26,590 nt of DNA from a virus: the IMG/VR virus record IMGVR_UViG_3300020451_000253, positions 1 to 26,590 of that record; one strand, given 5' to 3'. The translations under genes were made by a program, and so were the position numbers. The notes beneath the pieces were generated by a model, which did no database searches, was not told the DNA's origin, and worked only from the letters and a program-made list of their open reading frames with translations. Shown here piece after piece: positions 3,001 through 26,196 of the stretch (the first letter of the stretch is position 1; the number at the start of each line of letters is the position of its first letter).

Positions 3001-6000
3001 ATGTGGCTTCTAATTCTGGATTTGCACATTCATTTACAACTAACTTCCCTAAAGTAACATCTAAGGTAGAAAGATTCTTTGGTGAAGTGGGAGTAACATC
3101 AGCTCATGGATTATTGACTGATGATGTTATCACATTAGACGCTTTACCACAATCTACCGAAACAACTGTAGTTAGATACGATCCAGTGATTGCTAAAGTC
3201 ACTACAGGTAGAATAGGATTTGCCGTATCTGCTTTCTCAACAGACTTGACTGAAATTACAATACCCGATGATTCTCTACAGAGTGGAGATAAGGTTGTAT
3301 TCTATAACAATGGTAATACTATTACTGGTTTAGTCAATAATGAGACGTATTTTATTCTTAGAGAAAGTAGTGATGCCATTCAACTTTGTAAGTATAAGGC
3401 AGATGTATTTGATTCTAACCCAGTATCAATATCAACTGTTAGTGAAGCATCCTCTAATAATTTAAGTTACATTGCAAAAGTCAATCCACCACTAGAGTTT
3501 ACGACTGGTAATACAATCACATTTGACGTATCTGATCAAAGTCTTTTAGACATGAGACTTGACTTCTTTGAAGATATTACTTTTAAAGAAAAATTAGATG
3601 TTAACGGAACTAATGATACTGGATTTAATATTACAAGAAGCGGCATATCTGGAAATGCAAACGCCACAGTAACTATCAATACAACAAACAATTGGCCTTC
3701 AAAGACATTCTATAGTCTAACTCCTATAGTTCCTTCTGACAATAGAAAGTTATATGGCACATCTGACACCGAAGTTGTAGGTAGAAACAATATTACTTTC
3801 AAAAATGTTGTTCTAAAGACTGATCATGCAATCATCAATAAAGATGATACTACATTTACTTTCAACTTAAAAGAAAAACCTCCTGAGCCACAGAAACTTA
3901 TATCGAGAGTTGGTGTAAGTACAATCACATATAGCACTGCATCTAAAAATGCAAGAGGGCCTATCAACTCTACTAAAATCAATTTCCCAGGCAAAGGATA
4001 TACTATCTTACCTAGAGTCATTGGTTTTGCAAGTACCCAAGGTCAAGATGCCATTGTGAAAGTTTCTTCTCCTGAGATTGGTCAAATAGACATTGTAGAA
4101 AGAATCAAAGATGGATTTGACTATCCAACTGACCCTACACTATTGCCATTCTTAAGTGTCCCTGCTATAGTTGATGTAAGTGGTATTGCAAGGATGGATG
4201 AGATACGAGTAATAGATGGTGGTATAAGATATAATCAACCTCCTAAACTTGCAGTAAGAGGTAATAGTAATGTGTCAATTGAAGCAACTATATCAGGGGG
4301 ATCTGTAGATAAGGTTAATATAATTCAAAATGCTTTTGAGTTTAGTGAACCTCTTAGTATTATAACAACTAATAATTCTAATGGATATGACATTGATGCG
4401 ATTACTCACAGTGGTACAACTGTAACTGCTGAACTTCTTTTGGATGCACAGTTCAATAGACCAGTAACAACTGGATTTGCAAGTACAGAAACTAAGTTAC
4501 CATTTGCTATTGGTGATCAAGTGTTTGTAGAAAACTGTAGAATAACACCAGCATCTAAACTTAATGGAGAGGCTAACTTTAACTCTGCCGACTATGACTT
4601 CTCATTCTTCAATGTAACAGGAGTTAGTACTGAAAATGCCACTGTCACATTCAGTATGGCAAATGCTCCTGGCATCTCTACTGTAACACTGGGTGATTAT
4701 GATGATGACTTTACTTTAGGTTCTATTGTCAACTACAATGACATGGCTAAGTTCAATATGACAATTATTGATGATGCTAAGTACCTGTCTGGTGAAAAAG
4801 TCACATCCACTAAGTTTGAAGGTTTTGTTGCTGAGAATGGTTGGAATGGTAAGATCAGTCAACTTAGATTGAGAGATACCATTGGTACTCTCTTGCCTGG
4901 CGATAGGTTGTTTGGTGAGGTGTCACAACTTCTTGGTTCAGTTAGAGATGTTAATAGATTTAGGGTCAGAACTACTCTTGGCGTAACTAGAGATAAAGTT
5001 TCTAAGAATGACATGAACGTTGGTATTCTCAACGATTTCAGTCAGAGGTTATCGGATAACTTCTATTTCCAGAAGTTCTCATACTCAATCAAGAGTAAAC
5101 TACCATATTCAACATGGAAAGAATCAGTTAAATCTATTGTTCACCCATCAGGTTTCTTAGAGTTCTCGGATCTGATTATAGAAAGTGATCCTATTGCCAA
5201 TGTCGCTACTGTAGGAATTGCTAAGTCTACTAACATGAGAGTCAAGGCAGTAGATACAAGCGTTAAGTTGATTGTCAATATTGATAATGAAATGTATATG
5301 GGCAAGAGAGATAACTTTGCAGTTGTTACTGAGGATGATCAATTAGAAAATGGTTCTGTACAAAGAATCTTCTTCCCAGAAGGCAGACCAATTAAGAGTT
5401 TCATTATGAACAAGACTAATAAAGTCTTGAATCTTGATGATATATCTTCTGGTTTTAATGGATCACATGACAGAACAGGAACACTAGTTGGTAGTAAACA
5501 GTTTGGATTGACTGTAGGCGGATCACCTGTATTCAAGAAATCATATAATGCTGCAGCATCTGCCGATGTAGATATTGCATCCAACCTTATTAGTATTGTG
5601 GGTCATAATTTCCAGAGTGGACAATCAATTTTATTAGACACTCAAGGTGGTTCTAAGATTGGTATTGCTACTACTTCTCATACTACAGGATCTAGAGATA
5701 TTGTCATGGCTGTTAAAACATCTGGTGTCGGTGGTAGTGCAATGTATGAAAATGGATATAACATACAGATTCCAGGCCCTGTTACTGGAATTGCAGTCAC
5801 AGAGAATCCTCCTGGCCCAGCGTTTAGATTTTATGGATTTGGAATGGCAGAAGGTGGTGTGCCTGGCATCTCTACTAGAGGTAGTGGTGCTACATTCCAA
5901 GTTAGGTTTGATTTTGATCAAACCACTGGACAATGTATATCAACAGCAGTAGTTCTAACTAATGGTGGAACTGATTACTTCGTTACCGACAACGTAAGTA

Positions 6001-6779
6001 TCGCTGGTACATATTTGGGTGGTGCAACCCCAGCTAATAATCTTACCTTCCCAGTTACTAAAACAACAGGATCTAGAACTGGTATTACAACAACATACAC
6101 TAATGTTCCATCAACTGTACCAGAGTTTGGCGGAACAGGTGCAACATTTAATGTTACTAGGGATAGTAATTTGGATGTTACTGAGGTTGAGGTTGTAACT
6201 GGAGGAACTGGATATGCTTCTACTAATATTATTTCTATCGCTGGTACATACCTTGGGGGAACAACACCAACCAATAACATCTTACTTTCTCCTGTGGAGT
6301 TAGGAACTAATGTTATGCCTGACACTTTATTTGTACAAAAGATAGATGATGTTAAGTTTAGAATTTCTGGTTTATCAACTTCGCTTCCTTTCACCTTTAC
6401 TGGTCTAGGAACTGGAACACACTTCCTCAAGGTTGCAGAACCAAATAAACAAGCTCTTATCTTAATTGATAATATTATACAAACTCCTATTACGAACAAG
6501 AAGTTATCTGTCCAAGTTGCCGATTCTGTCGGACCAACAGATCAGGGAATATCAGTAACGACTGGTATTGCATCTATTTCAAAGGGAGATGTCATCAAGT
6601 TAGATGACGAATTCTTGAAGGTAAAACAAGTAGGTGACTCAACATTTGCTCAGGCAAGGACTGCTGTTTCAAACAGTACAGTAGCTACTGGTTTTTATTA
6701 TGATACCAAAAGAGTGAACTCAAGTGTGACCACAATTGACAACACATTTGCTACTATGGATGATAACCCTCCATATTAA
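1..6779 (+). CDS. Giant YHYH-domain virion structural protein, 5' partial
   Basis: The reading frame is open from base 3 to the TAA at 6777-6779, so at least 2258 residues are visible and the start lies upstream of the window. A TTG at 510 is an internal Leu codon, because the frame continues unbroken upstream with the same repeat style. The protein is made of beta-rich modules. About a dozen GGxGY-like motifs are visible (near nt 150, 560, 1000, 1140, 1250, 2070, 3990, 4220, 5970, 6205), mixed with HNFxxGExV-type modules near 310 and 675. A YHYH-like domain lies near 1485-1850. Close to the C-terminus come a QTP module (6453-6500) and an LDDEFLK module (about 6600). Marine T4-like phages carry virion proteins of this type. 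Its place two genes upstream of gp8 suggests a baseplate or tail-tip role, perhaps in the slot of T4 gp7, but that is synteny only. No enzyme motif was seen. Confidence 0.85.
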   Translation, partial: KLEVTNPGQDYDVITGPPLIINDSQGFGAVAHANVSGSFREVKLVTPGIGYQEKPKITVSGGNGSGAVLESNLVRGNLVSNFKADGTSVDTFDESVTFPERHNFEEGEAIVYDSRGNPPIVNIVDGSTYYAGVVNEKTIKLFKTPEDAKVGINTVDIGNISYGFHKFTSLLAKNTITKIYVKNSGSGYSNKKVIIQGRSVNGDTQSGISTSDDYVLAYNHNFRNGEIVEYSTEGTVASGLSTTTQYAVKVIDSNRFRLCDVGVSSQRNLTNYNKNKTVVISGFGSGKHTIKYPPIVVNVESLSGIAATTIIKPELEPLVFGEIESVYLEEGGVGYGCTNIMDFHRRPDVGIATVVSTALLKPIIIDGSIVDVQILAAGKGYRPDSDIIVYSPTGSFADIKPIITNNKITGITILDGGIGYDSATTTLDLQNRGKSAKFIADVKEWTINQVLKNDAIISDEDSLLTKPSTNPAFQLQTIGIYPPQKLRFQLGDNIDSGNIETPNAFHSPILGFAYDGNPIYGPYGYQTPTGGAIQRLQSGYILDTTLRSGLRPPGFAFGYFTNDYIFDNSGDLDVHGGRYCVTPQYPDGVYAYFYSVDVDSSGIAKPKFPYLIGGSFKDTPIDENFVTFFNQDIDITERELTRNVAPYYLSYGNSDYDLIDDVRDALKQEFEVTKIKSSGISSVTIFSRGDGYKVDDVLDLDGTGTDGTGANIVVGSVLGKPISTVQIGVTTFTETELVKNKNEIVGITSIPHEVANGETLIISGISTSDFTEFNGAKKVTVNNKTCGLSVELGNVSTTGPSTSIFVTDVSGFAVNDTIGIGTESFTITAIDSQFSRFFVNRENFVGAAMTHAVGTNNIILKPKKFSFPIGFSTLMRYTFENTITYFNPQQTVGVGSTGTHYTLPLTGLSTVQTVENRFVPQQRIYIKDHTFFTGQKLTYNMGIGGTSLVWAKVSAGATSGVGTEVLPNNGDVYAVNFEPDYIGLSTTGIPTTGDAVWFYNVASNSGFAHSFTTNFPKVTSKVERFFGEVGVTSAHGLLTDDVITLDALPQSTETTVVRYDPVIAKVTTGRIGFAVSAFSTDLTEITIPDDSLQSGDKVVFYNNGNTITGLVNNETYFILRESSDAIQLCKYKADVFDSNPVSISTVSEASSNNLSYIAKVNPPLEFTTGNTITFDVSDQSLLDMRLDFFEDITFKEKLDVNGTNDTGFNITRSGISGNANATVTINTTNNWPSKTFYSLTPIVPSDNRKLYGTSDTEVVGRNNITFKNVVLKTDHAIINKDDTTFTFNLKEKPPEPQKLISRVGVSTITYSTASKNARGPINSTKINFPGKGYTILPRVIGFASTQGQDAIVKVSSPEIGQIDIVERIKDGFDYPTDPTLLPFLSVPAIVDVSGIARMDEIRVIDGGIRYNQPPKLAVRGNSNVSIEATISGGSVDKVNIIQNAFEFSEPLSIITTNNSNGYDIDAITHSGTTVTAELLLDAQFNRPVTTGFASTETKLPFAIGDQVFVENCRITPASKLNGEANFNSADYDFSFFNVTGVSTENATVTFSMANAPGISTVTLGDYDDDFTLGSIVNYNDMAKFNMTIIDDAKYLSGEKVTSTKFEGFVAENGWNGKISQLRLRDTIGTLLPGDRLFGEVSQLLGSVRDVNRFRVRTTLGVTRDKVSKNDMNVGILNDFSQRLSDNFYFQKFSYSIKSKLPYSTWKESVKSIVHPSGFLEFSDLIIESDPIANVATVGIAKSTNMRVKAVDTSVKLIVNIDNEMYMGKRDNFAVVTEDDQLENGSVQRIFFPEGRPIKSFIMNKTNKVLNLDDISSGFNGSHDRTGTLVGSKQFGLTVGGSPVFKKSYNAAASADVDIASNLISIVGHNFQSGQSILLDTQGGSKIGIATTSHTTGSRDIVMAVKTSGVGGSAMYENGYNIQIPGPVTGIAVTENPPGPAFRFYGFGMAEGGVPGISTRGSGATFQVRFDFDQTTGQCISTAVVLTNGGTDYFVTDNVSIAGTYLGGATPANNLTFPVTKTTGSRTGITTTYTNVPSTVPEFGGTGATFNVTRDSNLDVTEVEVVTGGTGYASTNIISIAGTYLGGTTPTNNILLSPVELGTNVMPDTLFVQKIDDVKFRISGLSTSLPFTFTGLGTGTHFLKVAEPNKQALILIDNIIQTPITNKKLSVQVADSVGPTDQGISVTTGIASISKGDVIKLDDEFLKVKQVGDSTFAQARTAVSNSTVATGFYYDTKRVNSSVTTIDNTFATMDDNPPY
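1485..1850 (+). other. YHYH-like domain inside the giant structural protein
   Basis: The segment starts with the signature GFAYDGNPIYGPYGY (nt about 1530-1580) and continues through GGRYCVTPQYPDGVYAYF to FPYLIGG at about 1845. This matches the order of the YHYH family core: an AxDGxPIYGPYG segment, then a G-x-[YF]-C-x-T-P-x-[YF]-P-x-G-x-Y-x-Y segment. The His residues that name the family are absent here: the matching place reads Tyr-Ala-Tyr-Phe. The domain function is not established; in phages it occurs in virion proteins. Confidence 0.75.
5880..6297 (+). repeat. Internal tandem duplication, about 80 codons, two copies
   Basis: Two copies of a unit run from G[ST]GATF to SIAGTYLGG[AT]TP[AT]NN. 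The first copy is at about 5880-6050 and the second at about 6132-6290. The SIAGTYLGG blocks are 237 bases (79 codons) apart, while the GATF blocks are 252 bases apart, so one copy has a 5-codon indel between them. Each copy ends in a GGT[DG]Y turn followed by the SIAGTYLGG strand. The repeat stays in frame and lies in the C-terminal quarter of the YHYH protein. Confidence 0.8.
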
Positions 6780-6810: not shown

Positions 6811-7833
6811 ATGGCTAAACAAGGGATTAGTACTGGTTCGGCTCCCAATGATGGGACGGGCGATACCCTATTGGCAGGGACTATAAAGATCAATAATAAC
6901 TTCAACGAAATCTACGATATATTCGGAGATGGTGCTAACCTTGTAAGTTTTGTTTCTTTTGCTAGCACTGCTGGTTATTCTACAAATGCTGGTATTGCAT
7001 CAACATCTGTTGCTGCTGGAATCGCAGCGAGTGTTTCTGATGATATAAACATCAACACGAGTGGTGTTGTAACAACGAGTTATGGTGATATTGGTAAAAT
7101 TACAATTCAACAGCCTGGTGCGATTGCAGATGGCCCTATTGAAGTTGGAACTGCAACAACCATGTTCCGAATTAAGGCTGACGGTATGGTCGGCATTGGA
7201 ACATCTTTACCTACATCGCAATTAGAAGTTGCATCATTCTCTGCTGAAAGACCAACTATTTGGGCAGTTGCAAAAGGACTTGGACATGGATTGCGAGTAT
7301 CAGATGCTGCAGTAAGCGATAACAAATCTTTTGTAGTTACGAACGAGGCATATACTGGTATAGGTTCTACTGCTCCAACATGTAGATTAGATGTACAAGG
7401 TGATGTTCTAGTCAGTGGTGCAAGTACCCTGATGGATCAAGTCAACTTTAATTCCGATATTACGGAAAGAGTTGTAGGGAACTTTAGTGATACACTGACT
7501 GTAAGTGCAGGCGGCACAATAACTATGGATGTATCTCAGGGTTCTGTGATATTAGGTGGTATAACGACTTCGATTACGACATGGGCTTTCACTAATGTTA
7601 GTGGTCAGAATAGTAAAGCAACTACAGTTACACTTATAAACAATGCTGGAGTTGGATATACTTATGGTGATGCAACTACAGTAAACGGCACTCAAATTGC
7701 AAACGGTGTTAAATGGGTTGGTGGTAATCCTCCGCCTGCTACGAGTAATGATGATATACTAACGTTTAGCATAATTCGTGATAGCACTGGAGTTACCAGA
7801 GTTTATTGCAGTAGTTCTATCAACATCATATAG
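6811..7833 (+). CDS. Small tail-fibre-like structural protein, 340 aa
   Basis: The N-terminus MAKQGISTGSAPNDGTGD, followed by a KINNNFNEIY segment, is typical of short structural proteins in marine T4-like phages. The middle carries two copies of the fibre repeat GIG[TS]xxPTxxL[ED]V, at nt about 7190 and 7357; the second continues into GDVLVSG. Such repeats are common in trimeric tail fibres and in proteins with intramolecular chaperone ends, though no S74-type chaperone is seen here. The C-terminal 90 or so residues (TTWAFTNVSG, then GYTYGD, WVGGNPPP and DILTFSI) look like a beta-rich capping domain found at the end of many phage fibres. The ATG at 6811 is 23 bases after the late promoter box and has no clear Shine-Dalgarno sequence. 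The gene sits between two giant proteins and could be an accessory fibre or tip on them; that role is inference. Confidence 0.8.
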   Translation: MAKQGISTGSAPNDGTGDTLLAGTIKINNNFNEIYDIFGDGANLVSFVSFASTAGYSTNAGIASTSVAAGIAASVSDDININTSGVVTTSYGDIGKITIQQPGAIADGPIEVGTATTMFRIKADGMVGIGTSLPTSQLEVASFSAERPTIWAVAKGLGHGLRVSDAAVSDNKSFVVTNEAYTGIGSTAPTCRLDVQGDVLVSGASTLMDQVNFNSDITERVVGNFSDTLTVSAGGTITMDVSQGSVILGGITTSITTWAFTNVSGQNSKATTVTLINNAGVGYTYGDATTVNGTQIANGVKWVGGNPPPATSNDDILTFSIIRDSTGVTRVYCSSSINII

Positions 7834-7841: not shown

Positions 7842-10800
7842 ATGTCAACAAGAGTTACGCCAGGATCAGGAGCTCTACTCAGACCGTCATTTAACTCAGT
7901 ATATGGTGTTTACCAAATTGAAGTTTTAGACGGAGGTACAGGGTATGCTGCAACCGATCCTCCAAAGATTACTATTGAGGGAACAACCACACCAGCAACA
8001 GAAGGTGTATTTTTCCCTGTTATTAGTGGTGTTGGTACAATATCTGAAATTATCATATTTAACACTGGTGTAGGATACTATCCTGTATTCAGTACGACTA
8101 CCAATTCACAGGTGGTTGTGGAGAGAGGTGCCTTTGGAACTCTATCTACAAGTCATGGTGTTGGACTTAGTTCAGTGTTTACTGGTGATTATAATATTAT
8201 AGATGATAATATATTCTTTACAGATGCACCATATGGACAAGCAGGTCCTATAGGTCTTAAGACTAGTTCTTCTTTCTCTGGCAGATTGTTCTCTAGGAAG
8301 TTAGATCCATTTGATACAGCAGATAAAAACGTTATTCTTGATGATATAGCATTAGAATTTACAGGAGTTGCAGGCACACAATTTACTGTGAGTGAGAACT
8401 TAGGTGTAGTCACTTCTCTCTACAACAATGTCAACACAGGAGTAGATATAAGTAACAATCCGTTTATTCTAATTAACAATGTTGTTCAGACACCTGGCCT
8501 AGATTTTGAAGTCGTAGATTCATCAGAAAACAAACTTAATTTTCTAAGTGGAGTTCCTAGAGCTGGAAGAATTAACAAAGTAGGATTACAGTCAGGTTCT
8601 GGATACTACTTACCAATCAAAGCTGCTGCAAGAGTCGGTGTTGGAACAACTGGTAGTCTTGAATTTATACAGATAGAAGGAAAGGGACAAGGATATAGGG
8701 CAATACCAGAAATAACAGTCAGATCATCTCAAGGTTATGGTGCAAGTCTCAGCGCTACTCTTGGAACATCATCAGGAAGTGCAGTTGCTATATCTACCGC
8801 AGACTATAATCATATCGCTGGTATATGTACATTCACCACTAGTAGTCCTCATGGATTTGTAGAAAATGACAGAGTAAGAATTACTGGTGCTGGATTTACA
8901 TTTACTCCAGTATCTGCTCTAAGAAATATTAATACCTTTGGTTATAATTACATAACTGGTATTACAACCATTGGTGTAACAGGTGGTCATTATCTAGGAA
9001 CTGCAACTAACCAAAGTAGAAGTTTATTAATAAAACAGGTTCAGGTAACAGAGGGAATATCTACATTTACTTTCAGGGAAGACGCATATCCTGTTGTAGA
9101 AATTATTGATAACTTAAACGTATTAGTTGATTGTGGTGTCAGTACGCAACCATTAGCCTATGTTAGCGGGGGATTGGTGCAAGCAGGCGTTGATACTGCA
9201 ATCATGGAAGGTAGAAATGTAATTGGTTTTGATGTTTTAAGTGGACACACTGCGAATACATTCAGAGCTTTTGTTGGTATCTCTACATTTGAACATAATT
9301 ATGTAAGTGGTGGTGTTGTAAACAGAGCAGAAGCGGGTATAATTACAAGTTTTAGTATTGTGGAAGGTGGAACTGGATTCTATAAACCCAAAACAATTCA
9401 ATATCTGGAACAAACACCAATTAACGGTATTACAACAGTTACTGCTCATGGTGCTCAGGACGGAACAAGTATTAATATATCTCAAATAGATTTTGAGTCA
9501 TTCTCTGGTGTTGCAACAATTACTGCAGCATCTGCTCATGGACTAACGACTTCAAACGTTGTCAAGTTGTCTAATATTGTATTTGATACCAGTATTGGAA
9601 GTAAGACTTTCCCATCAGATTCACAAAAATATTTTGGTGTCACAGGTATTGTAAGTGCAACAAACTTTACAGTGAACATTGGTATGGCAGTAACAACCAC
9701 TGGTGTTCACACTGCGACAGCTGGTGTTGGTTCATTCATACCATTTGAAGGACATGAATTAGAAACTGATGACTTTGTAAACGTAACTGGTGTAGCAGTC
9801 ACATTTACCAGTGCTCCAGCTGTTCAAGTTGGTCATGTTGAGTATGATGAGACATCTGGTATTGCAACTGTCACAACTAGAAAGAATCATAATCTTACAG
9901 AAGATGATTGTGTAATACTATCTGGTATTGCCTTTACATGCGATTATGACCCTGCATTAGGTGTTTCCAGTGCGTTGTATGATAATGTAACTGGAGTTCT
10001 AACTGTAACGACTGCAGCACCTCATGGATACAAGGTAGGTAAAGATGTTATCTTAACTGGTCTTGCATTTACATGTGCTTTAGATAATGGTGCAAAAGAT
10101 CATTATTATCCAAGAAGTAGATCAACTGCATACGATACTTCTATCCCAATTACAGGATATGCTGGCACTGGGCTTTCAATGGATGTGGGTATATCTCGTG
10201 TCAAGAATCAATACATTCACAGATTTGAAGAGGCAGTTGCTGGGGCAATCATATATGGTGGTGATTATCCTCATCAATTCCTCCGTTCAGTAGATGAGCC
10301 ATTACTAACTGGAGGACCTTATCTACATGGGTTCTACAGTGCAACTGCAACATCTACCTTTGCTGGTGGCGACTATGCACACACATATGTAAGTTCTGAT
10401 GAAAAAACAATAAAAATTGGTGGCGATTATGCACATCAATTTGTAAGTGCAGATACTAATGCTGTTCAAATAGTTGGTGGATCACAAATCACACCTACAG
10501 ATGCTGATTATACTCCTAGTACTGGTTCATTATTATTGACTCTTAATGGACATGGTTTGACAGGACCTAGTCAACATTCACTTACAACTGCTAACTATAA
10601 TCCAATTGTAGGTATCTTAACTATAACAGTTCCTAGTCATGGATTCTCAAATGGAGACATGGTTAGAATTGCAGATAATTCTATCGGTTGGAAGTGTTCA
10701 TTAGATCAATTTACATCAACAAAATACTATCCAAGATCTACAGACCCTCTAAGTAACAATTGGGTTCCAATATCAAACAAGACAACTGACACTTTTGAGG

Positions 10801-13800
10801 TCTTTGCTGGTATTACTACTAGAGTAGATTACACTGTGTCTGGAGCGGATTATACACCGTCTGTAGGTATCATGACAATGAGTATTGGAGTTCATGATTT
10901 AGAGGCTGGACAAAGTATTAAGTTTAGAGATAGTTCACTTGGATTTACATGTACTGCTGACCAAAACACTGTAACTAAGTACTATCCTAGATCAAAAGAT
11001 CCTACTTACAACACCGCTGTACCTATTGTTAGTATTGCTGGAACAACCATCACAGTCAATGCTGGTATCACAACCATAGTTCCATATAACATAAGGTTTG
11101 CAGATTACACACCAGCGTTGGGTATCATGACTGTTTCTCTTGACAGACTACATGGTTTCCAAGCTGGAGAAACTATCAAGTTCAAAGCTGGAGCTCTTGG
11201 ATTTAGATGTGAACAAGACGGTTTCCAATCTAGTCACTTCTATCCAAGACCACAAGACCCTTACTACGATAAACCAGTAAGTATTGTTAGTTGTGCTGGT
11301 ACAATATTCACTGTTGATGTTGGAGCTACTGGTGGAGCAAACATCTATACATTCATACCTAATCAGGGTGTGGCGGTTGGTGGTGTTCTTGCTGGTGGTG
11401 ATTATCCATATACTTTAGTTGGTGTTGGAACTGATGCGGTCATTACTGGTGGTGGAGACTATGGCCCATACTGGTATCAGTCATCAGTTGCAAATGCTAT
11501 AGAAAGACCAACTCAATTGGTTCAAATTGCAGAAGGTTCTTTGAACTTCAAGTGTGCTAAAGATAACTATGCAACTGTTCATGCGTATCCTCGTAAGACA
11601 GACCCAGCGTATAATACAAATCTAGGAATCGTTTCTGCAACTACAGATACCTTTGAGGTAAGAGTTGGGCCTTCTACAATACAGGAACGTTCTATATCAA
11701 CATCCACATACAATGCTGGTACAGGTGAACTTGTACTTAACGTGGGTGCTGGACACTCTTATTACGATCACTCAGCTCATACAATTTCGACGGCGACGTA
11801 TAATGCTAGTACTGGTGTACTAGAACCAACCATTGCAAATCATGGTTTCGTTGCTGGTGAGTATGTCAAGTTTGACTTAGAATCAATTTCATTCAAATGT
11901 GATCTAGATGGATATACTGCAACTAAGGCATACCCAAGATATTCTGATCCATTCTTGAATGAGTGGCTACCAATCTATCATGTCGGTGTAAATACATTCT
12001 CTGTAAATGTTGGTGTATCTACCATTGTAAATGCACACTGGTTCCAGAGTGCAACTACTGGTGGTCTTAAGAAAGCTAGAGACACTGTTGGTATCAATAC
12101 TGCATCTATAAGATTCACATGTGCTAGAGATAATTTTGCAACAGAACACGCATATCCTCGTCCTGATGATCCTATCGGTGGTAATGTATCAGTCGGTATT
12201 GGTTCTACATCTGCTGACACTATAACAATCAATGTTGGCGTGTCAACAATAGTTAACTACGGTATTACTACTGCAGCCTATACTGCAACTACAGGTATCA
12301 TGACCGTGTTCTCCAATGTACACGGATTTAATGGTGCGTTACCTAAGAGTGTCACTTTTGCAACTTATGATGCTGGATCTGGTATTATGACATGTACAGT
12401 TGCTGGACATGGAATGGTGACTGGTAATAGAGTTCAGTTTGCAAGAGATTCCATAAGATTTAGATGCTTTATGGATAAACGGAAGACTATTAAGAGTTAT
12501 CCAAGAGCTAAAGATCCAGCAGATCAAAAGTGGTTATCAGTCACAACTGTTGACCTTGATAAGTTCTCTGTAAACGTTGGAACTTCACCTCTAGTTTACC
12601 ACAGTCCCACAAGTGGATCTTTTGATCCGTTTACTGGTTTGATGACTGTGGACATTGGATCTCATACACTTAAGAAAGGAACTTCTGTAAAACTTAAGAC
12701 TAGAGGATTCAAATTTACCTGTGCTTTAGATAATCATGCGACAAATCACTTCTACCCAAGGGCAAGCGGTATATCTGGCCCAGACCCTGCTTACAATACT
12801 GCTGTTAAAATTACTTCTACAACAGATACTACAATTACTCTGGATGTAGGAAAATCATCTAATCAATCAGAACATATTTTTGTTTCTGCATCTGCTGACT
12901 CTGTTATCAGTGGTGGTAATTATATTCACACATTTGAGAACGCAGATCTTAATGGAATGTTAATTGCTAGAGACACTATTGGTCTTGCAACAGATTCATA
13001 TACATGGAGATGTTCTCAGGACAACTATGCCACTGATCACACATATCCAAGAACAACTGATCCTATACACAATGTGGAAGTTGGTGTTGTTACTTCTACG
13101 ACAGATACATTCACAATTAACGTAGGTATCACATCTAGAGTCAAGTTCAATGTAACTAATGCAACTTATGACGCAAACAGTGGATTAGCAACAATAACCA
13201 CTGATACCTCACACGGATTATCAACTACGACTAGTGTTGGTTTAGCAACAGGCGGATTGGTTTATGCTTGTTCTATGGATCAATATGCAACAGAACATCC
13301 ATATCCTCGTACGACTGACCCTGCACATAACGCTGCATTATATCCAACTGCCGTAACATCTAACAATGTGACTTTGAATGTTGGTGTTTCTACAAGAGTA
13401 GAATACAATATCAATCATGCGGATTATAATGAATCTATTGGTATTATGACTGCCTTCTTACCAGCAGTTCATGGAATCACAACCGCAGCTGGTGTTGGTA
13501 GAAATATTAAATTGAAAACTGAGTCTATCTTATTCTCATGTTCTCAGGATAACTATGCTACAAAACAATTCTATCCAAAAGGAGGAGATCCTTATTACAA
13601 TGGATCATTAATTACTAGAGTTCTCAGTAATACTCAAATTGAAACTCAAGTAGGCCCATCTACCACACCTAGTTTCTACAACTCTGGTGGTAAGATTCAA
13701 GGTGTCATACTTGCACCTAGACTTAGAAATAACTCTCCTAGTGGTGAAGACTTTGCTTCTGGTGGTACATTTATTGATAAGATAATTGATAGTAAAACTT

Positions 13801-16800
13801 ATGTTGTAAATGTTGGTATTTCAACTGTTGATCACAACTATGCTAGGGCTGGTATCTCACAACAAGGTAAGAGAATTTCATCTTCTATCGAAAAGGGATA
13901 CTCTGGATTCAATGTTATTGAAAAATTAGATGCTGGAAAATTCAGAGTTGATGCTGGGGTTACAACACAAAGATCTCTATTTAAGAGAGGTGGTAGAATT
14001 GATAAACCAGTTTTCGTTGATATTGCACCTCCAGATCCATACTTTAATAGAAAGCTAGAATACGTTTCTGGTTCTACTGGTCTTGGAACAGATGCGGTGG
14101 TTGATTTCCGTATCAATGTTGATGGTAATATTGCTGAATATAACCTCACAGAAGAAGGAACTGCTTATAAGAACGAAGAAGTCCTAACTGTTTCTGGTAT
14201 TGCCACCGACCCAAGAGTAGGTGTTCTTACAGAATTCCAATTAACAGTTCAAGAATTAGAGAATGATACTTTCTCTGGATTCTATCCAGGCCAGTTCATT
14301 CTGTTTGATGATATATCACAGTTCTTCAATGACAAACGTAAGAAATTTACTCTATCAGTTACAACTGCTGGTGTTACCGAAATCTTAAGTCTTAAGACTT
14401 TGCCTGGTAGTGATATGGATATTACTAATAATATCTTTATCTACGTCAATGATATTTTACAGACTCCACAATCCTCTTATACATTTAAGGGTAGTAGAGT
14501 TATCTTTAGTGAGGCACCAAAGGCAAACTCTAAGTGTTCTGTATTCTACTTTAGAGGATCTAAGAGAGATGTTGAAACTGTAGAACCAGTAGCATCAGTT
14601 AAACAGGGTGACATTGTTAGAATCAAAGAAAATAGAAATGATCCTCTAGACAGAGATCAATTTGAAAGAACAACTAAGAGAATTATTGCTTCTGATGTTT
14701 TAGAAACATTCACTTACAATAGTATTGGTATTGATACTGCTGCTGATGCAGAGAGACCTTTATCATGGGAGAAACAGAGGCAAGACCAAATTCTTTCTGG
14801 TATTCTAATATCTAAATCTAGACCAGCTTTGAAGAGTAGAGTTCTACCAACCACAAGACTTATTAAGAATGTTGGTGATTTGGATGATAGTTTCTATGTA
14901 AACAATGCGTTCCCAGTATTCAACGCTATAGACAAGTTAATACAGTCTGAAAGAAATGTCACAATATTTGAAGATGTAAATGTAGAGCCTGGAATTGTTA
15001 CTTCTCTTGTTTCTACATCATCAAGTATATCATCACTTACAATTGGATTTGGTGGAACTGGATATGCTAATCTTTCTAATCCAACTGTTGCTATCTCATC
15101 ATCTCTAATAGAACGTGAAGATCCAATCTCTGCGTGGAAGTTTGATGCGATTACTGGTATTACTTCAGCTGTAGAATTCAAAGCAATATCCAAAGAAGCT
15201 CCATATGTTGCTGTTGGTACAAGTAGTTTCTACATGAATACTAAGAGTGGTACATTCTGGGAGAGAGGTAGAATTGGATTTGGTGGAACTGTCACATTCA
15301 ATGGTGTTGGCGTAGGTAATACTGTCTTCAGTCCTGATGTATACGTCATGGCGGTTGGTGATTATGGATCTATAGCAAGAGCAGTTGCGATTGGTAATAG
15401 TATCAGTGCATTTACTCCTCTAGCACTACTAGAACAAAGACAAATCCCTGCTATTGCTCAGATAAGTACATTCCCAAGTACATACACTGGTAATTTCAAG
15501 AGTGTTGTTTGGGAGGGAACTAGAGATACTTGGGTTGCAGTTGGTGCTGCTGGATCTATATTCACCGCTGTGGGTATGACAACTGATTCTGCATACAGTC
15601 AGTTCTCAGGAACACTACAGACTCTAAATGCAGTATGCTATGGACAGTCAGAATACATCGCTGTAGGTAACGGTGGTGTTATTCTTGCATCTAACGATGG
15701 AACAGCATGGGGTGATAAAGTAAGTAATACTGCTAACGACTTAAATGATATCATATATGATGGTAACAGATTCATTGTTGTTGGTGATAGTGGTACGATT
15801 GGTATTTCAACCAATAAGAACTTCTGGCAACCTTGGAGTCAACAGTTACCAGCTGGAACACAACACCCTGCTACATTTGACTTTGCTAAGATCAAGTTCT
15901 TTGATAATATCTACGTTGGAATTAGTACAGTGGGTCAACTATACTATTCATTCGATCTTGCGAACTGGAATTTAAGAACTGTAAGTCATTCTGAAGAAAT
16001 TCGTGATCTTGTTCAAACACCTTATGGTAATTTTGCAAGTAATAGAGTTATTACAGTTGGATCAGGAACAACTACTTTCTATGCAGACCCAGTAGTTAAC
16101 AGGGCAACTGCAACTGCATCTGCAACTGCTGGAGTTATCACATCAGTCACCATTACTAATGGTGGATTTGGATATAGAGTTGGTAGTAGTCCTCCAGTTA
16201 TTGTAGAATCAGATAAAACTAAGAGTGAAGAAATATTCTCAATCGATGCAAAAGGCGACTTTGGCGATATTGTAGGAATAAATACATGGCTACCAGGCTC
16301 TGCTAACGTATTACCTAGACTGGCATTTACACTCAAGTCTCAGTACAACGATAACACTAACTTAGGTTATGGTTATTCTTCACTAAATGATCTTGGAGTT
16401 AACTTTAGTGGATTATCACAGGGTGATTATTTCACAATCTATGATAGTTCTTTGGTTGTAGGGCATGCACTTACAGGTATAACAACCTCAAGTGGTTCAA
16501 ATCAACCTGTCGGTATGGTAACTTCTGGTGATTATCTTGGTGGTGTATTCAGAGTTGAACAAATCACAACAGGTGATGCCGTTTCTGGATTAGTTACAGT
16601 CACATGTGCTTTCCAGCCAGGACCTACTCCTTACGGTAATAACACAATTCAAGTTGGTGTTGCTACAACAGCAACCACTGACACATTCTGGGGTAAATAT
16701 AGTTGGGGACAAATCTTCGGTTATCAAAATCGTGGTGCTGGCAATCCAACAAGTTTCCTCGTCAATACTATGAACGGTAATGTAGGATTATCCACAGCTG

Positions 16801-16832
16801 CTGTGGTGTCCAGAAATAAACCAATGACTTAA
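7842..16832 (+). CDS. Giant repeat virion protein with YPR array and propeller-like end, 2996 aa
   Basis: Likely a baseplate-peripheral or fibre protein. Residues 1-330 hold GGxGY-type repeats (first at residue 31) and a QTP module at 208-219. Residues about 320-740 hold HGxxxGDxV-type modules. Residues about 745-1930 form an array of 12 units centred on CxxDxxxTxHxYPRxxDP. Residues about 2150-2400 form a nonrepetitive block with a second QTP module (from 2199) that resembles conserved segments of other marine phage structural proteins. Residues about 2455-2747 carry six or seven AVGxxGxI/W repeats like a beta-propeller. A last GGFGY module follows. No signal peptide, membrane segment or catalytic motif is evident. 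It lies between the fibre-like gene and gp8, so a late-expressed tail part is likely. The start at 7842 is supported by the AGAGGA site. The exact function is unknown, and I recognise no named family for the YPR array. Confidence 0.85.
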   Translation: MSTRVTPGSGALLRPSFNSVYGVYQIEVLDGGTGYAATDPPKITIEGTTTPATEGVFFPVISGVGTISEIIIFNTGVGYYPVFSTTTNSQVVVERGAFGTLSTSHGVGLSSVFTGDYNIIDDNIFFTDAPYGQAGPIGLKTSSSFSGRLFSRKLDPFDTADKNVILDDIALEFTGVAGTQFTVSENLGVVTSLYNNVNTGVDISNNPFILINNVVQTPGLDFEVVDSSENKLNFLSGVPRAGRINKVGLQSGSGYYLPIKAAARVGVGTTGSLEFIQIEGKGQGYRAIPEITVRSSQGYGASLSATLGTSSGSAVAISTADYNHIAGICTFTTSSPHGFVENDRVRITGAGFTFTPVSALRNINTFGYNYITGITTIGVTGGHYLGTATNQSRSLLIKQVQVTEGISTFTFREDAYPVVEIIDNLNVLVDCGVSTQPLAYVSGGLVQAGVDTAIMEGRNVIGFDVLSGHTANTFRAFVGISTFEHNYVSGGVVNRAEAGIITSFSIVEGGTGFYKPKTIQYLEQTPINGITTVTAHGAQDGTSINISQIDFESFSGVATITAASAHGLTTSNVVKLSNIVFDTSIGSKTFPSDSQKYFGVTGIVSATNFTVNIGMAVTTTGVHTATAGVGSFIPFEGHELETDDFVNVTGVAVTFTSAPAVQVGHVEYDETSGIATVTTRKNHNLTEDDCVILSGIAFTCDYDPALGVSSALYDNVTGVLTVTTAAPHGYKVGKDVILTGLAFTCALDNGAKDHYYPRSRSTAYDTSIPITGYAGTGLSMDVGISRVKNQYIHRFEEAVAGAIIYGGDYPHQFLRSVDEPLLTGGPYLHGFYSATATSTFAGGDYAHTYVSSDEKTIKIGGDYAHQFVSADTNAVQIVGGSQITPTDADYTPSTGSLLLTLNGHGLTGPSQHSLTTANYNPIVGILTITVPSHGFSNGDMVRIADNSIGWKCSLDQFTSTKYYPRSTDPLSNNWVPISNKTTDTFEVFAGITTRVDYTVSGADYTPSVGIMTMSIGVHDLEAGQSIKFRDSSLGFTCTADQNTVTKYYPRSKDPTYNTAVPIVSIAGTTITVNAGITTIVPYNIRFADYTPALGIMTVSLDRLHGFQAGETIKFKAGALGFRCEQDGFQSSHFYPRPQDPYYDKPVSIVSCAGTIFTVDVGATGGANIYTFIPNQGVAVGGVLAGGDYPYTLVGVGTDAVITGGGDYGPYWYQSSVANAIERPTQLVQIAEGSLNFKCAKDNYATVHAYPRKTDPAYNTNLGIVSATTDTFEVRVGPSTIQERSISTSTYNAGTGELVLNVGAGHSYYDHSAHTISTATYNASTGVLEPTIANHGFVAGEYVKFDLESISFKCDLDGYTATKAYPRYSDPFLNEWLPIYHVGVNTFSVNVGVSTIVNAHWFQSATTGGLKKARDTVGINTASIRFTCARDNFATEHAYPRPDDPIGGNVSVGIGSTSADTITINVGVSTIVNYGITTAAYTATTGIMTVFSNVHGFNGALPKSVTFATYDAGSGIMTCTVAGHGMVTGNRVQFARDSIRFRCFMDKRKTIKSYPRAKDPADQKWLSVTTVDLDKFSVNVGTSPLVYHSPTSGSFDPFTGLMTVDIGSHTLKKGTSVKLKTRGFKFTCALDNHATNHFYPRASGISGPDPAYNTAVKITSTTDTTITLDVGKSSNQSEHIFVSASADSVISGGNYIHTFENADLNGMLIARDTIGLATDSYTWRCSQDNYATDHTYPRTTDPIHNVEVGVVTSTTDTFTINVGITSRVKFNVTNATYDANSGLATITTDTSHGLSTTTSVGLATGGLVYACSMDQYATEHPYPRTTDPAHNAALYPTAVTSNNVTLNVGVSTRVEYNINHADYNESIGIMTAFLPAVHGITTAAGVGRNIKLKTESILFSCSQDNYATKQFYPKGGDPYYNGSLITRVLSNTQIETQVGPSTTPSFYNSGGKIQGVILAPRLRNNSPSGEDFASGGTFIDKIIDSKTYVVNVGISTVDHNYARAGISQQGKRISSSIEKGYSGFNVIEKLDAGKFRVDAGVTTQRSLFKRGGRIDKPVFVDIAPPDPYFNRKLEYVSGSTGLGTDAVVDFRINVDGNIAEYNLTEEGTAYKNEEVLTVSGIATDPRVGVLTEFQLTVQELENDTFSGFYPGQFILFDDISQFFNDKRKKFTLSVTTAGVTEILSLKTLPGSDMDITNNIFIYVNDILQTPQSSYTFKGSRVIFSEAPKANSKCSVFYFRGSKRDVETVEPVASVKQGDIVRIKENRNDPLDRDQFERTTKRIIASDVLETFTYNSIGIDTAADAERPLSWEKQRQDQILSGILISKSRPALKSRVLPTTRLIKNVGDLDDSFYVNNAFPVFNAIDKLIQSERNVTIFEDVNVEPGIVTSLVSTSSSISSLTIGFGGTGYANLSNPTVAISSSLIEREDPISAWKFDAITGITSAVEFKAISKEAPYVAVGTSSFYMNTKSGTFWERGRIGFGGTVTFNGVGVGNTVFSPDVYVMAVGDYGSIARAVAIGNSISAFTPLALLEQRQIPAIAQISTFPSTYTGNFKSVVWEGTRDTWVAVGAAGSIFTAVGMTTDSAYSQFSGTLQTLNAVCYGQSEYIAVGNGGVILASNDGTAWGDKVSNTANDLNDIIYDGNRFIVVGDSGTIGISTNKNFWQPWSQQLPAGTQHPATFDFAKIKFFDNIYVGISTVGQLYYSFDLANWNLRTVSHSEEIRDLVQTPYGNFASNRVITVGSGTTTFYADPVVNRATATASATAGVITSVTITNGGFGYRVGSSPPVIVESDKTKSEEIFSIDAKGDFGDIVGINTWLPGSANVLPRLAFTLKSQYNDNTNLGYGYSSLNDLGVNFSGLSQGDYFTIYDSSLVVGHALTGITTSSGSNQPVGMVTSGDYLGGVFRVEQITTGDAVSGLVTVTCAFQPGPTPYGNNTIQVGVATTATTDTFWGKYSWGQIFGYQNRGAGNPTSFLVNTMNGNVGLSTAAVVSRNKPMT
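10050..13660 (+). repeat. 12-unit protein-coding repeat array (CxxDxxxTxHxYPRxxDP)
   Basis: The Cys codon of each unit begins at 10074, 10695, 10950, 11208, 11553, 11898, 12120, 12465, 12720, 13011, 13269 and 13539. Spacings in codons are 207, 85, 86, 115, 115, 74, 115, 85, 97, 86 and 90. Eleven units have YPR and the last has YPK. Around the core each unit has SxxFxC before it and a TFxVNVGxST strand after it. Many units also carry a YxxxTGIMTV plus HGFxxGxxV segment. The 115-codon spacings look like the 85-codon unit plus one extra YxxxTGxxTxxxHG block. Copies are clearly diverged at DNA level, so the expansion is old and kept by selection. Confidence 0.9.
10250..10445 (+). repeat. GGDY[AP]H short repeats between array units 1 and 2
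   Basis: Three copies of GGDY[AP]H occur at about 10257, 10366 and 10420, with a GGPYLHGF variant at about 10312. They are 18 to 20 codons apart and are followed by an aromatic or hydrophobic strand and an acidic stretch. Relatives recur later in the array (GGDYPYTL near 11395, GGGDYGPYW near 11450, GGNYIHTF near 12912). They fill the unusually long 207-codon gap between the first two YPR units. Confidence 0.7.
15204..16082 (+). other. Beta-propeller-like domain near the C-terminus of the 2996-aa protein
   Basis: Residues about 2455-2747 contain blade-like repeats with the pattern [YF][IV]xVGxxGxI followed by a Trp-containing turn. They are seen at nt about 15204 (YVAVGTS), 15345 (MAVGDYGSI), 15528 (WVAVGAAGSI), 15654 (YIAVGNGGVI with SNDGTAW), 15771 (FIVVGDSGTI with FWQPW), 15910 (IYVGISTVGQL with ANW) and 16045 (VITVGSG). 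This resembles BNR/sialidase or Ycf48-like propellers. Six or seven blades are possible. The sialidase Asp-box is only partly present, so a structural or glycan-binding role fits better than catalysis. Confidence 0.6.
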
Positions 16833-16867: not shown

Positions 16868-18463
16868 ATGCCTGCTATAATATCCGAACAGTTTAGAATT
16901 TTAAATGCCGAAACCTTTGTTAAAAGTTTTGTCGGAGTCGGATCAACTGTTAACAAATACTACGCTTTTATGGGATTACCTAATTCCATAGAATCAAAGG
17001 CAGGCGGTACTGCCACATGGCCAACCGATACCCCATCACCCCTAGACGGATTTGAGGAAGAGTATTCTATCAAAGAGTCTATCATTGCTATGAAGAAAGT
17101 TACTGACAAGGATGTTCGCAGACTTGTTAGAAAGGTGTCATGGGTTGCTGGTACTACCTATGAGATGTACAGACATGACTATAATATTTACAATTTAACA
17201 CCAATTACTTCACAAGGTAGTTTGTACGATTCAAATTACTACATAGTAAATGAAGACTTGAAAGTTTACATTTGTCTCCAAAATGGATCAGACCCTGAGA
17301 ACCCCAAGGGTAGGCCTTCATATGACCAACCCACATTTGTTGACCTTGAGCCAAGAGCAGCTGGCACTAGTGGCGATGGTTACGTTTGGAAATATCTTTA
17401 TACGATTAAACCATCCGAAATCATTAAATTTGACTCTATTGAATACATACCAGTGCCCGAAGACTGGGGCAAACAAGGCGAGACTGTTGCAACAAAGGCT
17501 AATGCTATAGATGGAAAAATCGAAGTTGTTGTTGTTAATGATAGAGGCTCTAACTATCAACCGATCTCTACATCTTTTGCCAATGTTCCAATTCTCGGAG
17601 ATGGATCAGGAGGAAAGGCTACAATTACGATTGATTCTTTCGGAAAGGTTTCTGAAGTATTTGTTACTGACGGAGGAGAAGGATATACCCACGGATCCAT
17701 ACAGTTCTTCCCAGGCGCTCCTGGCAGTGAGTCTGGCGGTGTTCTTGCTAACCTTACCAATACTGGAATAGGAACTACATCTATTTCTAGTTTTAGTGTT
17801 ATCATTCCACCTAAAGGAGGACATGGATATGACATCTACAGAGAGTTAGGTGCATACAGAGCATTATTATATTCCAGATTTGAAACATTAGAAACTAACC
17901 CTGACATCATTGAAGGTAATGATTTTGCTAGGGTTGGACTTATAAAAAATCCCACTGTATTTGGTAGTAACACAGAATTACTAGACACTGCTATGGTCAG
18001 TGGTTTAAAAGCATTGAAATTAAGTGGAGTTACCACAGCAACAACTTATGCTGTTGACTCTGAGATCACTCAAACAGTTGGTGTAGGATCAACTGCGATA
18101 GGTTATGTAGCGTCATGGGACAAAGTTACTGGAGTATTAAAGTATTATCAACCAATGGGTCTTGCTTCAAGTGAAACTGGATATAAGATAATTCCATTTA
18201 CTTCAAACCCTGATACTGGATACGGAGTTACTATCCAAGGTTCATCTGTAACTGGTTCTTTATTGTCTGTTGATACCAATTATAACGGTGTCAGTACCTC
18301 AATAAATAATAAGACATACCAACTTGGTATGAGTTTTAGTGCTGGTATTTCATCTGCTGAGTTCAATACTAAATCTGGTGAAATAATTTACATCGATAAC
18401 AGGACTGCGATTCCTAGATCCGCAAGTCAAAAGGAAGACATTAAAATAGTGCTGGAGTTCTAA
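16868..18463 (+). CDS. 8: Baseplate wedge protein gp8, enlarged form (531 aa)
   Basis: In T4, gp8 is a dimeric baseplate wedge subunit that binds gp10, gp7 and gp6. Two diagnostic segments match T4 gp8: GDGYVWKYLYTI at residues 169-180 (T4 GDGYVWEYLFEI), followed by an EYIPVP segment, and SGEIIYIDNR at 503-512 near a C-terminal KEDIKIVLEF (T4 SGEMIYMENR, EEINILFTF). T4 gp8 has 334 residues, so this one is about 200 longer. At least part of the excess is a GGxGY-type insertion at about residues 219-310. The ATG at 16868 gives the N-terminus MPAIISEQFRILNAETF; no Shine-Dalgarno site is seen in the T-rich leader. The next gene starts 6 bases after the stop. Identification is firm from the two motifs, length and neighbours. 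Confidence 0.9.
   Translation: MPAIISEQFRILNAETFVKSFVGVGSTVNKYYAFMGLPNSIESKAGGTATWPTDTPSPLDGFEEEYSIKESIIAMKKVTDKDVRRLVRKVSWVAGTTYEMYRHDYNIYNLTPITSQGSLYDSNYYIVNEDLKVYICLQNGSDPENPKGRPSYDQPTFVDLEPRAAGTSGDGYVWKYLYTIKPSEIIKFDSIEYIPVPEDWGKQGETVATKANAIDGKIEVVVVNDRGSNYQPISTSFANVPILGDGSGGKATITIDSFGKVSEVFVTDGGEGYTHGSIQFFPGAPGSESGGVLANLTNTGIGTTSISSFSVIIPPKGGHGYDIYRELGAYRALLYSRFETLETNPDIIEGNDFARVGLIKNPTVFGSNTELLDTAMVSGLKALKLSGVTTATTYAVDSEITQTVGVGSTAIGYVASWDKVTGVLKYYQPMGLASSETGYKIIPFTSNPDTGYGVTIQGSSVTGSLLSVDTNYNGVSTSINNKTYQLGMSFSAGISSAEFNTKSGEIIYIDNRTAIPRSASQKEDIKIVLEF
17522..17730 (+). repeat. GGxGY-type beta module inserted in gp8
   Basis: Two successive turns, VVVNDRGSNY (residues 221-230) and VFVTDGGEGY (ending at residue 273), flank a GGKATITID strand. 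This is the same pattern as the repeats in the three neighbouring large proteins. T4 gp8 has nothing obviously similar at this place, between the GDGYVW segment and the C-terminal core. Confidence 0.7.
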
Positions 18464-25987: not shown

Positions 25988-26196
25988 TGAATAAAGTAAA
26001 AGTAAAGGATAGTGGATCTCTTTATAGAGATGAAGAATCAGGTGCAATATTAAATTGTTCTGATTCTGAATATAATAGTTACCTCAAATTGAAACAGAAA
26101 AAGATGGATGAGGCTGGTGAAATGGATAAACTAAAGAATGATGTTGATGAACTTAAAGACATGATGAAACTAATTTTAAGTAAATTAGATAAATAA
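25987..26196 (+). CDS. Small coiled-coil protein, 69 aa
   Basis: The ATG shares its A with the TAA stop of the DUF4815-type gene (TAATG), implying coupled translation. The N-terminal half (VKVKDSGSLYRDEESGAILNC) looks like a compact head, and the C-terminal half from about residue 30 is charged with leucines and methionines spaced in heptads (MDKLKNDVDELKDMMKLILSKL), a clear coiled coil. Short proteins of this plan follow DUF4815-type genes in marine T4-like phages, from memory, so this is probably a real conserved gene. It may trimerise or dimerise as a connector or an assembly factor for the giant protein before it. No function can be assigned from sequence. Confidence 0.8.
   Translation: MNKVKVKDSGSLYRDEESGAILNCSDSEYNSYLKLKQKKMDEAGEMDKLKNDVDELKDMMKLILSKLDK
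26188..26195 (+). promoter_or_regulatory. Late-promoter-like box GATAAATA
   Basis: This differs from the T4 late consensus by one base (G for the first T) and overlaps the stop codon of the 69-residue gene. It lies 28 bases before the ATG at 26216, close to the 30 and 33 bases seen for the other two boxes. The overlap with coding sequence (codons for Leu-Asp-Lys-stop) means the match could be partly chance, but the position argues for a working promoter. Confidence 0.6.

Follow-up and report, generated by a model that had tools for sequence, protein, structure and literature searches.

What kind of protein carries twelve copies of a unit marked by the residues C-D-YPR-DP, and what might such an array do for the phage that encodes it? 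The question is raised by P0001, a 2,996-residue protein encoded in the virus record IMGVR_UViG_3300020451_000253, of which positions 1 to 26,590 were analyzed; this whole stretch of 26,590 bases, with seven genes, all on the plus strand, is called the window below. An earlier note made from the DNA letters had described the 12 units in this protein, and their place and spacings were borne out. The repeat is real and is nameless in Pfam and NCBIfam, and structure models suggest that it probably forms a barrel to which a conserved loop is added. Its carrier, judged by collinear alignment, is the C-terminal half of a giant baseplate protein at the gp7 position, with a connector gene lying in the split. 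The array has a definite anatomy and its carrier is split, its units differ in presence and copy number between phages, and their count is fixed within the close lineage.

The twelve units and their carrier

The cysteines of the units lie at P0001 residues 745, 952, 1037, 1123, 1238, 1353, 1427, 1542, 1627, 1724, 1810, and 1900 (nucleotides 10074-13539), with Cys-to-Cys spacings of 207, 85, 86, 115, 115, 74, 115, 85, 97, 86, and 90 residues. Past the first gap, these spacings fall into the expected classes: 85-90 residues five times, 115 three times, and 74 and 97 once each. A profile built from the 12 units, which are thus its training set, recovers each of them at 71-92 bits and finds one further row in P0001 at 4.5 bits. 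Since 200 shuffled copies of P0001 yielded a single match, at 4.3 bits, the array is not a product of chance. The units are as follows, each placed by profile.

10056..10226, + strand, YPR unit 1
10674..10862, + strand, YPR unit 2
10929..11117, + strand, YPR unit 3
11190..11354, + strand, YPR unit 4, followed by a 115-residue gap without an HG block
11535..11720, + strand, YPR unit 5
11880..12062, + strand, YPR unit 6, which with the preceding HG block is the best fold match (P0001 1310-1414; profile and model)
12099..12293, + strand, YPR unit 7
12447..12632, + strand, YPR unit 8
12699..12890, + strand, YPR unit 9
12990..13178, + strand, YPR unit 10
13248..13436, + strand, YPR unit 11
13518..13706, + strand, YPR unit 12, a YPK variant

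The strict motif CxxDxxxTxHxYPRxxDP, which the note had given to every copy, is present in units 5, 7, 10, and 11 but not in the other 8 of the 12. Units 1 and 9 are without DP at the motif spacing, and unit 12 reads YPK. The units share only 13-53% identity in pairwise comparison, and Tandem Repeats Finder detected no array here; together these observations indicate that the array is old, and we rejected recent tandem duplication on the same grounds.

The composition of the loop was examined in 512 nonredundant units from the fetched loci, a set anchored on [YF]P[RKAQ], so that Tyr, Pro, and in part Arg are favored by selection; for 65 of 1,192 unit matches, no anchor was found or the match sat at an edge. 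Of the 512 units, 98% keep the Arg of YPR and 80% keep the second Asp. Retention of the first Asp and of the Cys, at 92% each, would suit a metal or redox module, in which the Cys, Asp, and His of the loop bind a metal or the Cys crosslinks adjacent units. The His position, however, is His in 75% of units and Lys in 20%, and it is Lys or Gln in 5 of the 12 units of the window. Y-P-R is also not known as a usual set of metal ligands. A single Cys is present in 447 of 469 canonical units, so that no disulfide can form within those units. We therefore rejected a metal site, the His not being kept, and we give this module as a whole very little credence.

As a separate observation, a unit with a Trp 19-25 residues past the Cys was followed by another of the Trp type only 40 times in 206 (odds ratio 0.40, uncorrected for relatedness), and a Trp unit precedes 35 of the 45 gaps that are 76-81 residues long. 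This hints, at the level of sequence, at two alternating unit types.

The source of the window is an S-SSM7-like cyanomyovirus. Synechococcus phage S-SSM7 (Kyanoviridae, Lipsvirus) has a protein annotated as gp7, the baseplate wedge initiator, with which P0001 shares 80% identity along its whole length. Besides P0001, the gene set comprises P0002, P0004 (340 residues), P0005 (gp8), P0003 (a DUF4815 protein), and two small genes. The gene order gp6-gp7-gp8 is kept: gp8 follows P0001 in the window, which begins within the N-terminal gp7 part and leaves gp6 outside, and gp25-gp6 is seen upstream in S-SSM7, whose order is identical (gp25, gp6, gp7 N-terminal part, connector, gp7 C-terminal part, gp8). 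The genes and segments of the locus are as follows.

3..6779, + strand, P0002, N-terminal part of the giant gp7-position protein, with a YHYH domain, running past the left end of the window (81% identity to residues 744-3007 of the S-SSM7 "gp7" stop-to-stop open reading frame)
6811..7833, + strand, P0004, gp9-type connector (T4 gp9/10 N-terminal domain) between both gp7 parts (PF07880, 2.9e-10)
7842..16832, + strand, P0001, C-terminal part of the split gp7-position protein, 2,996 residues, carrier of the array (open reading frame and alignment of relatives)
8043..8798, + strand, conserved scaffold preceding the array segment, P0001 68-319 (aligned with S-CAM9 gp7 2732-2984)
8799..14123, + strand, segment without an S-CAM9 gp7 counterpart, P0001 320-2094, holding the entire YPR array (45 S-CAM9 residues between the flanking matches)
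14124..16829, + strand, conserved C-terminal scaffold, P0001 2095-2996 (collinear alignment)
16868..18463, + strand, gp8 baseplate wedge, which fixes the position of the locus (PF09215, 1.5e-9; phrog_438, 3.3e-162)

Among the closest known systems are the giant gp7 proteins of the cyanomyoviruses P-SSM2, S-CAM9, and S-SSM7, which share the gp6-gp8 locus and a collinear scaffold; S-SSM7 also has the same split and 12 units. Unlike the window, P-SSM2, S-CAM9, and S-SCSM2R have one open reading frame (ORF) of ~3,880-5,200 residues at the gp7 position, with 9, 0, and 1 units, respectively, and P0002 is collinear with its N-terminal part in all three. BLAST against S-CAM9 gp7 gives P0002 (2-1896, 2100-2211), then P0001 68-319, then P0001 2095-2991, and only the 45 S-CAM9 residues stand opposite P0001 320-2094. 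P0002 2211 and P0001 54-68 are directly contiguous in S-CAM9, P-SSM2, and S-SCSM2R, with the split point the same to within 25 residues. A homologue of the connector is present in S-SSM7 and Sf-FS3; none was found among ORFs of >250 residues in the loci of S-CAM9, P-SSM2, and S-SCSM2R.

In the gp7-position ORF, S-SSM7 carries 12 units, P-SSM2 9, Sf-FS3 7, S-SCSM2R 1, and S-CAM9 and S-PM2 0. Over whole records (E ≤ 1e-3), the counts are 14 for S-SSM7, 11 for P-SSM2, 9 for Sf-FS3 (7 + 2), and 1 for S-SCSM2R. The other two units of S-SSM7 lie in a 1,482-residue ORF annotated "phage tail fiber-like protein." S-CAM9 has two weak partial unit matches elsewhere and none in gp7, and no YPR units were found in the six examined S-PM2 proteins of the corresponding locus. 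In a published chemostat evolution experiment (PMC9910659), S-PM2d081, the S-PM2 protein at the gp7 position, acquired a mutation early; as this protein is without YPR units, the mutation bears on the scaffold and not on the array.

Three observations on neighboring genes and labels may be added. P0004 consists of a T4 gp9/10-type N-terminal domain and a C-terminal part (172-332) resembling pieces of fiber-like and virion structural proteins of other cyanophages; its sequence gives it the look of a short, stand-alone adhesin set between the gp7 halves. Two public labels are misleading: the S-SCSM2R gp7-position protein (L005 2472-17990) is annotated as "large exoprotein, involved in heme utilization or adhesion," and "Virulence Associated protein" is the name given to the S-PM2 match of the window's DUF4815 protein (L212 16217-24460). 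A 21-base tandem repeat of 1.9 copies lies at window positions 26125-26166, in the 3' part of a 69-residue gene.

Blocks between units and the predicted fold

Where do the length steps come from? The note had matched the extra ~30 codons of the long gaps to one added block of the form YxxxTGxxTxxxHGFxxG, here called the HG block. We counted such blocks, and a second, GGDYxH-type (GGDY) block, over 383 nonredundant gaps between adjacent units, with profiles made from 56 blocks of 85-residue gaps (HG) and from 45 pattern matches (GGDY) and with self-chosen thresholds of 5 bits in the 383 gaps and 3 bits in the window. Gaps of 57-62 residues hold a single HG block in 26 of 26 cases; those of 82-92 residues hold a single HG block and no GGDY block in 108 of 118, a class that is partly circular because the HG profile was trained on 85-residue gaps. 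A single GGDY block without an HG block is found in 33 of 45 gaps of 76-81 residues, and two HG blocks are found in 14 of 27 gaps of 111-118 residues. A Fourier test of the spacing was weak (best period 30, R 0.29), and the reading of the length steps therefore relies on these block counts.

Each of the window's five gaps of 85-90 residues holds one HG block. The added HG block accounts for the 115-residue gaps between units 5 and 6 and units 7 and 8 but not for that between units 4 and 5, which has no HG block and shows by eye two GGDY-type stretches, neither above 3 bits with the GGDY profile; equal gap length can thus hide different content. The 97-residue gap holds GGDY-type repeats, the 74-residue gap has no HG block and a sole GGDY match of 8.8 bits, and the 207-residue gap has two HG blocks and five GGDY matches. 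The train of blocks begins ahead of the range 10050-13660 given for the array, with HG-type matches within residues 316-703. The blocks are as follows.

8787..8906, + strand, HG-type block without YPR, 1 (residues 316-355; 17.0 bits)
9471..9698, + strand, HG-type block without YPR, 2 (residues 544-619; 7.1 bits, weak)
9825..9950, + strand, HG-type block without YPR, 3 (residues 662-703; 11.5 bits), also a sub-threshold E1_FCCH match
10209..10475, + strand, GGDYxH-type repeats in the 207-residue gap (GGDY profile)
10494..10676, + strand, two HG blocks ahead of unit 2 (HG profile)
10836..10931, + strand, HG block (HG profile)
11100..11186, + strand, HG block (HG profile)
11697..11873, + strand, two HG blocks in a 115-residue gap (HG profile)
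12267..12443, + strand, two HG blocks in a 115-residue gap (HG profile)
12606..12701, + strand, HG block (HG profile)
12873..12968, + strand, GGDYxH-type repeats in the 97-residue gap (GGDY profile)
13152..13247, + strand, HG block (HG profile)
13416..13514, + strand, HG block, weak (9.2 bits)

AlphaFold single-chain models were made of units 5-8 (P0001 1229-1604, pLDDT 83) and units 10-12 (1688-1969, pLDDT 77). In either model, one stretch comprising HG, C/YPR, and VNVG parts was matched whole to one small β-barrel, so that the blocks appear to be pieces of a barrel, and in these models such a stretch likely folds as one barrel of the endosialidase or FCCH kind. The idea of two independently duplicated submodules survives in that the length steps come from separable blocks, but HG and YPR do not look like two domains. 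With VIA, the model of units 5-8 matched the phi92 endosialidase (4hiz) at residues 256-340 (Z 8.2, root-mean-square deviation [rmsd] 1.9, 77 aligned), the K1F endosialidase (1v0e) at 424-508 (Z 7.5, rmsd 1.9 over 78), the FCCH domains of Uba1 and Uba6 (up to Z 7.9), the T1 tail tube (Z 7.2), and an N4 tail protein (Z 6.1). The model of units 10-12 matched the Uba1 FCCH first (Z 7.9) and the phi92 endosialidase at Z 6.2. The best Foldseek match of the units 5-8 model was again the phi92 endosialidase (3.3e-3), and a viral structure library returned mainly cyanophage proteins, with S-SSM7 at the top.

Both likenesses have limits. Against the endosialidase β-barrel (PF12195), ~105 model residues stand here where the endosialidase range has 85, so that the YPR unit carries extra residues, which we infer to be the YPR loop; here, moreover, the barrel would form a tandem array in a protein of the baseplate locus. 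The ubiquitin E1 FCCH domain (PF16190), whose fold matches to both models have rmsd values mostly of 2.3-3.0 over 73-82 residues, fits by profile in its HG...GD half, and the YPR unit exceeds the FCCH range in length by ~25 residues.

By sequence, the claim that the unit has no named family held in part. No Pfam or NCBIfam family was above its cutoff in P0001, where E1_FCCH reached 19.1 bits (curated cutoff, 29.5), but the units belong to unnamed or loosely named PHROG families, and the predicted fold leads to FCCH and endosialidase barrels. Of 36 single units, 32, 33, 31, and 15 match PHROG 1276, 701, 5342, and 18802, respectively; the labels of these families ("virion structural," "tail fiber," or unknown) apply to entire proteins and to neither a unit nor a fold. 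In one relative (L060), E1_FCCH reached 34.9 bits for the whole protein, with no single stretch passing. Among 96 multi-unit pieces (E ≤ 1), 19 matched E1_FCCH (best 9.2e-5) and 8 matched End_beta_barrel (best 2.1e-5); with 20 pieces scanned singly (E ≤ 0.1), the counts were 4, all in the HG half, and 0, and E1_FCCH matched 0 of 36 unit cores. Searches of solved structures by sequence, with profiles of the core, of multi-unit pieces, and of whole units, returned nothing credible. Sequence support being partial, we regard the fold as likely and claim no membership in a family.

Other candidates from these pieces were set aside. Cthe_2159, a family described as carbohydrate-binding, matched 12 of the 96 pieces (best 6.3e-6), Fn1_2 8 (best 5.3e-6), DUF7243 8, and DUF5522 6, and none of these is indicated by the fold matches. 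An iota-carbonic anhydrase was rejected because its chain E value of 0.0044 came with a best single stretch of E 5.5.

These models and the place of the array also bear on the suggestion that the units are laid out along a fiber. In a homotrimeric fiber, three parallel chains would run side by side with the units as fiber segments, which would agree with the name "tail fiber protein" of phrog_5342, matched by P0001 at 6e-119, and with related units in ORFs annotated as short tail fiber or fiber-like. The single-chain model of the unit, however, matches single-chain barrel domains, and the scaffold is that of a gp7-position wedge protein. T4 gp7 is a monomer present in six copies per tail (PMC3004832), and a trimeric fiber is thus not the default. 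The placement along a fiber was not upheld, and we regard a trimer as quite unlikely.

Distribution among phages

Of 50,697 phage records, 329 were matched by a consensus-like two-unit query, and the name of every one of these starts with Synechococcus, Cyanophage, Prochlorococcus, or Marine. The gp8 of the window matched 528 records, 458 of them with the three cyanophage names (the two sets were not intersected). The 1,192 unit matches in the fetched loci, many of them redundant, lie in 197 ORFs. A degenerate DNA pattern found at least 120 stretches in viral contigs and 19 in bacterial and archaeal genome contigs. Among the latter is a 188-kb contig labeled Nonlabens xiamenensis (L195), of which the 8 kb tested share 98.7% identity with cyanophage P-TIM40. 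By this match, the assembly of a bacterial isolate apparently includes a cyanophage genome, and such contig labels are therefore not evidence of units in bacteria. The unit-bearing contigs labeled Euryarchaeota, Planctomycetaceae, Flavobacteriales, and so on may likewise be co-binned phage. The C-D-YPR-DP loop thus comes here from phages that are marine and mostly cyanobacterial, and from contigs of possibly co-binned phage DNA. One ORF (L206:1-7998) combines a LamG-like domain (Laminin_G_3, 1.9e-16) with 15 YPR units.

Conservation and a possible role

We propose, with about even confidence, that the array is an arm of barrels, formed by a single chain on the baseplate wedge, for which the predicted fold, and the fold only, suggests glycan binding. 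The variable segment at ~320-2094, between conserved N- and C-terminal scaffold parts, would be a train of small β-barrels, 12 of which would carry the conserved C-x2-D...H/K-x-YPR..DP loop and be connected either directly or by additional HG or GGDY blocks. The train would leave each wedge as beads on a string, which the monomeric state of T4 gp7 suggests. The arm would lengthen reach, perhaps toward the host cell, and would offer many weak contacts to cell-surface sugars; this step draws on PMC12632334, which describes the K1F endosialidase barrel as a hotspot of host discrimination and counts it among three polysialic-acid sites. It would adjoin the gp9-type connector, placed there because the N-terminal domain of T4 gp9 binds gp7 (PMC3004832). 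In its boldest form, the proposal is that a cyanomyovirus wedge protein was turned into a length-adjustable adhesive arm, single-chain and made of sugar-binding endosialidase-type barrels with the C-D-YPR-DP loop, that such barrels come and go and are set apart by means of exchangeable half-barrel blocks, that reach and avidity are set by unit number, and that a gp9-type connector gene lies at the arm base; we consider all of this together unlikely.

Conservation is one of several results that weigh against an adhesive arm. Twelve units are present in 26 of 26 full-length relatives at ≥70% identity (the window copy and S-SSM7 counted), of which 14 are distinct at 97% identity, and the spacing ladder is nearly constant. 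For 13 distinct relatives, all units best match their own position in 9 of the 10 that could be scored (L036 being the other), and 3, with 11 units by pattern, were left unscored. Across the 14 distinct orthologues, conservation is 0.821 for the array and 0.832 and 0.829 for the scaffold parts; it is slightly lower (0.78) for the stretch 320-738 before the YPR units and ranges from 0.737 to 0.912 for single units. This frozen count and scaffold-like conservation are unlike a fast-changing receptor binder, and a hypervariable receptor binder was rejected, array and scaffold diverging equally. By these comparisons, the array is old, frozen in this lineage, and variable between lineages, with gain and loss unpolarized.

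The same findings are what one would expect of a pure mechanical spacer or packing element, in which the barrels enlarge the baseplate or set a distance, for example, for the connector and its fiber, and bind no ligand: equal conservation of array and scaffold, a fixed number of units, units that keep their positions, and few near-invariant residues (C, D, YPR, and D). Such a spacer is harder to reconcile with the one or two unit copies in other ORFs of these phages, such as the 1,482-residue ORF of S-SSM7, where they would measure no length, and with a predicted fold common to a sugar-binding barrel. A ligand-free spacer fits almost as well as the sugar-binding arm, and we hold it possible, if on the doubtful side.

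The fold evidence also has its weak points for the arm. The structural matches span only one unit per model, leaving the remaining units scarcely covered, and VIA Z scores of 7-8 are, according to the tool, common for models without a clear match. Foldseek against the PDB gave nothing at E ≤ 1e-3 for either model, and its top rows for units 10-12 were unrelated alphavirus spike chains (E ≥ 0.065). E1_FCCH matches single-unit pieces in just 2 of 26 cases, and its sequence match is limited to the HG half (best stretches at profile positions 3-27 of 70); End_beta_barrel has no match in P0001 at E ≤ 1. Finally, profiles of the N- and C-terminal scaffold returned no gp7 chain among PDB sequences, a set in which the presence of T4 gp7 was unchecked. 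As homology to T4 gp7 is thus unseen by sequence, the "gp7" label rests on position and public annotation.

To our knowledge, the way in which marine T4-like cyanophages make contact with their hosts is poorly known, and the giant gp7-position proteins of ~3,000-5,200 residues have been annotated mostly by position. No description of these units was found in titles or abstract openings among the literature matches listed, which is not proof of absence. A defined repeat, a predicted fold, and a series of natural copy numbers (12, 9, 7, 1, 0, and 0) now make the role of the array testable, whether that role is in reach, in host range, or in nothing at all.

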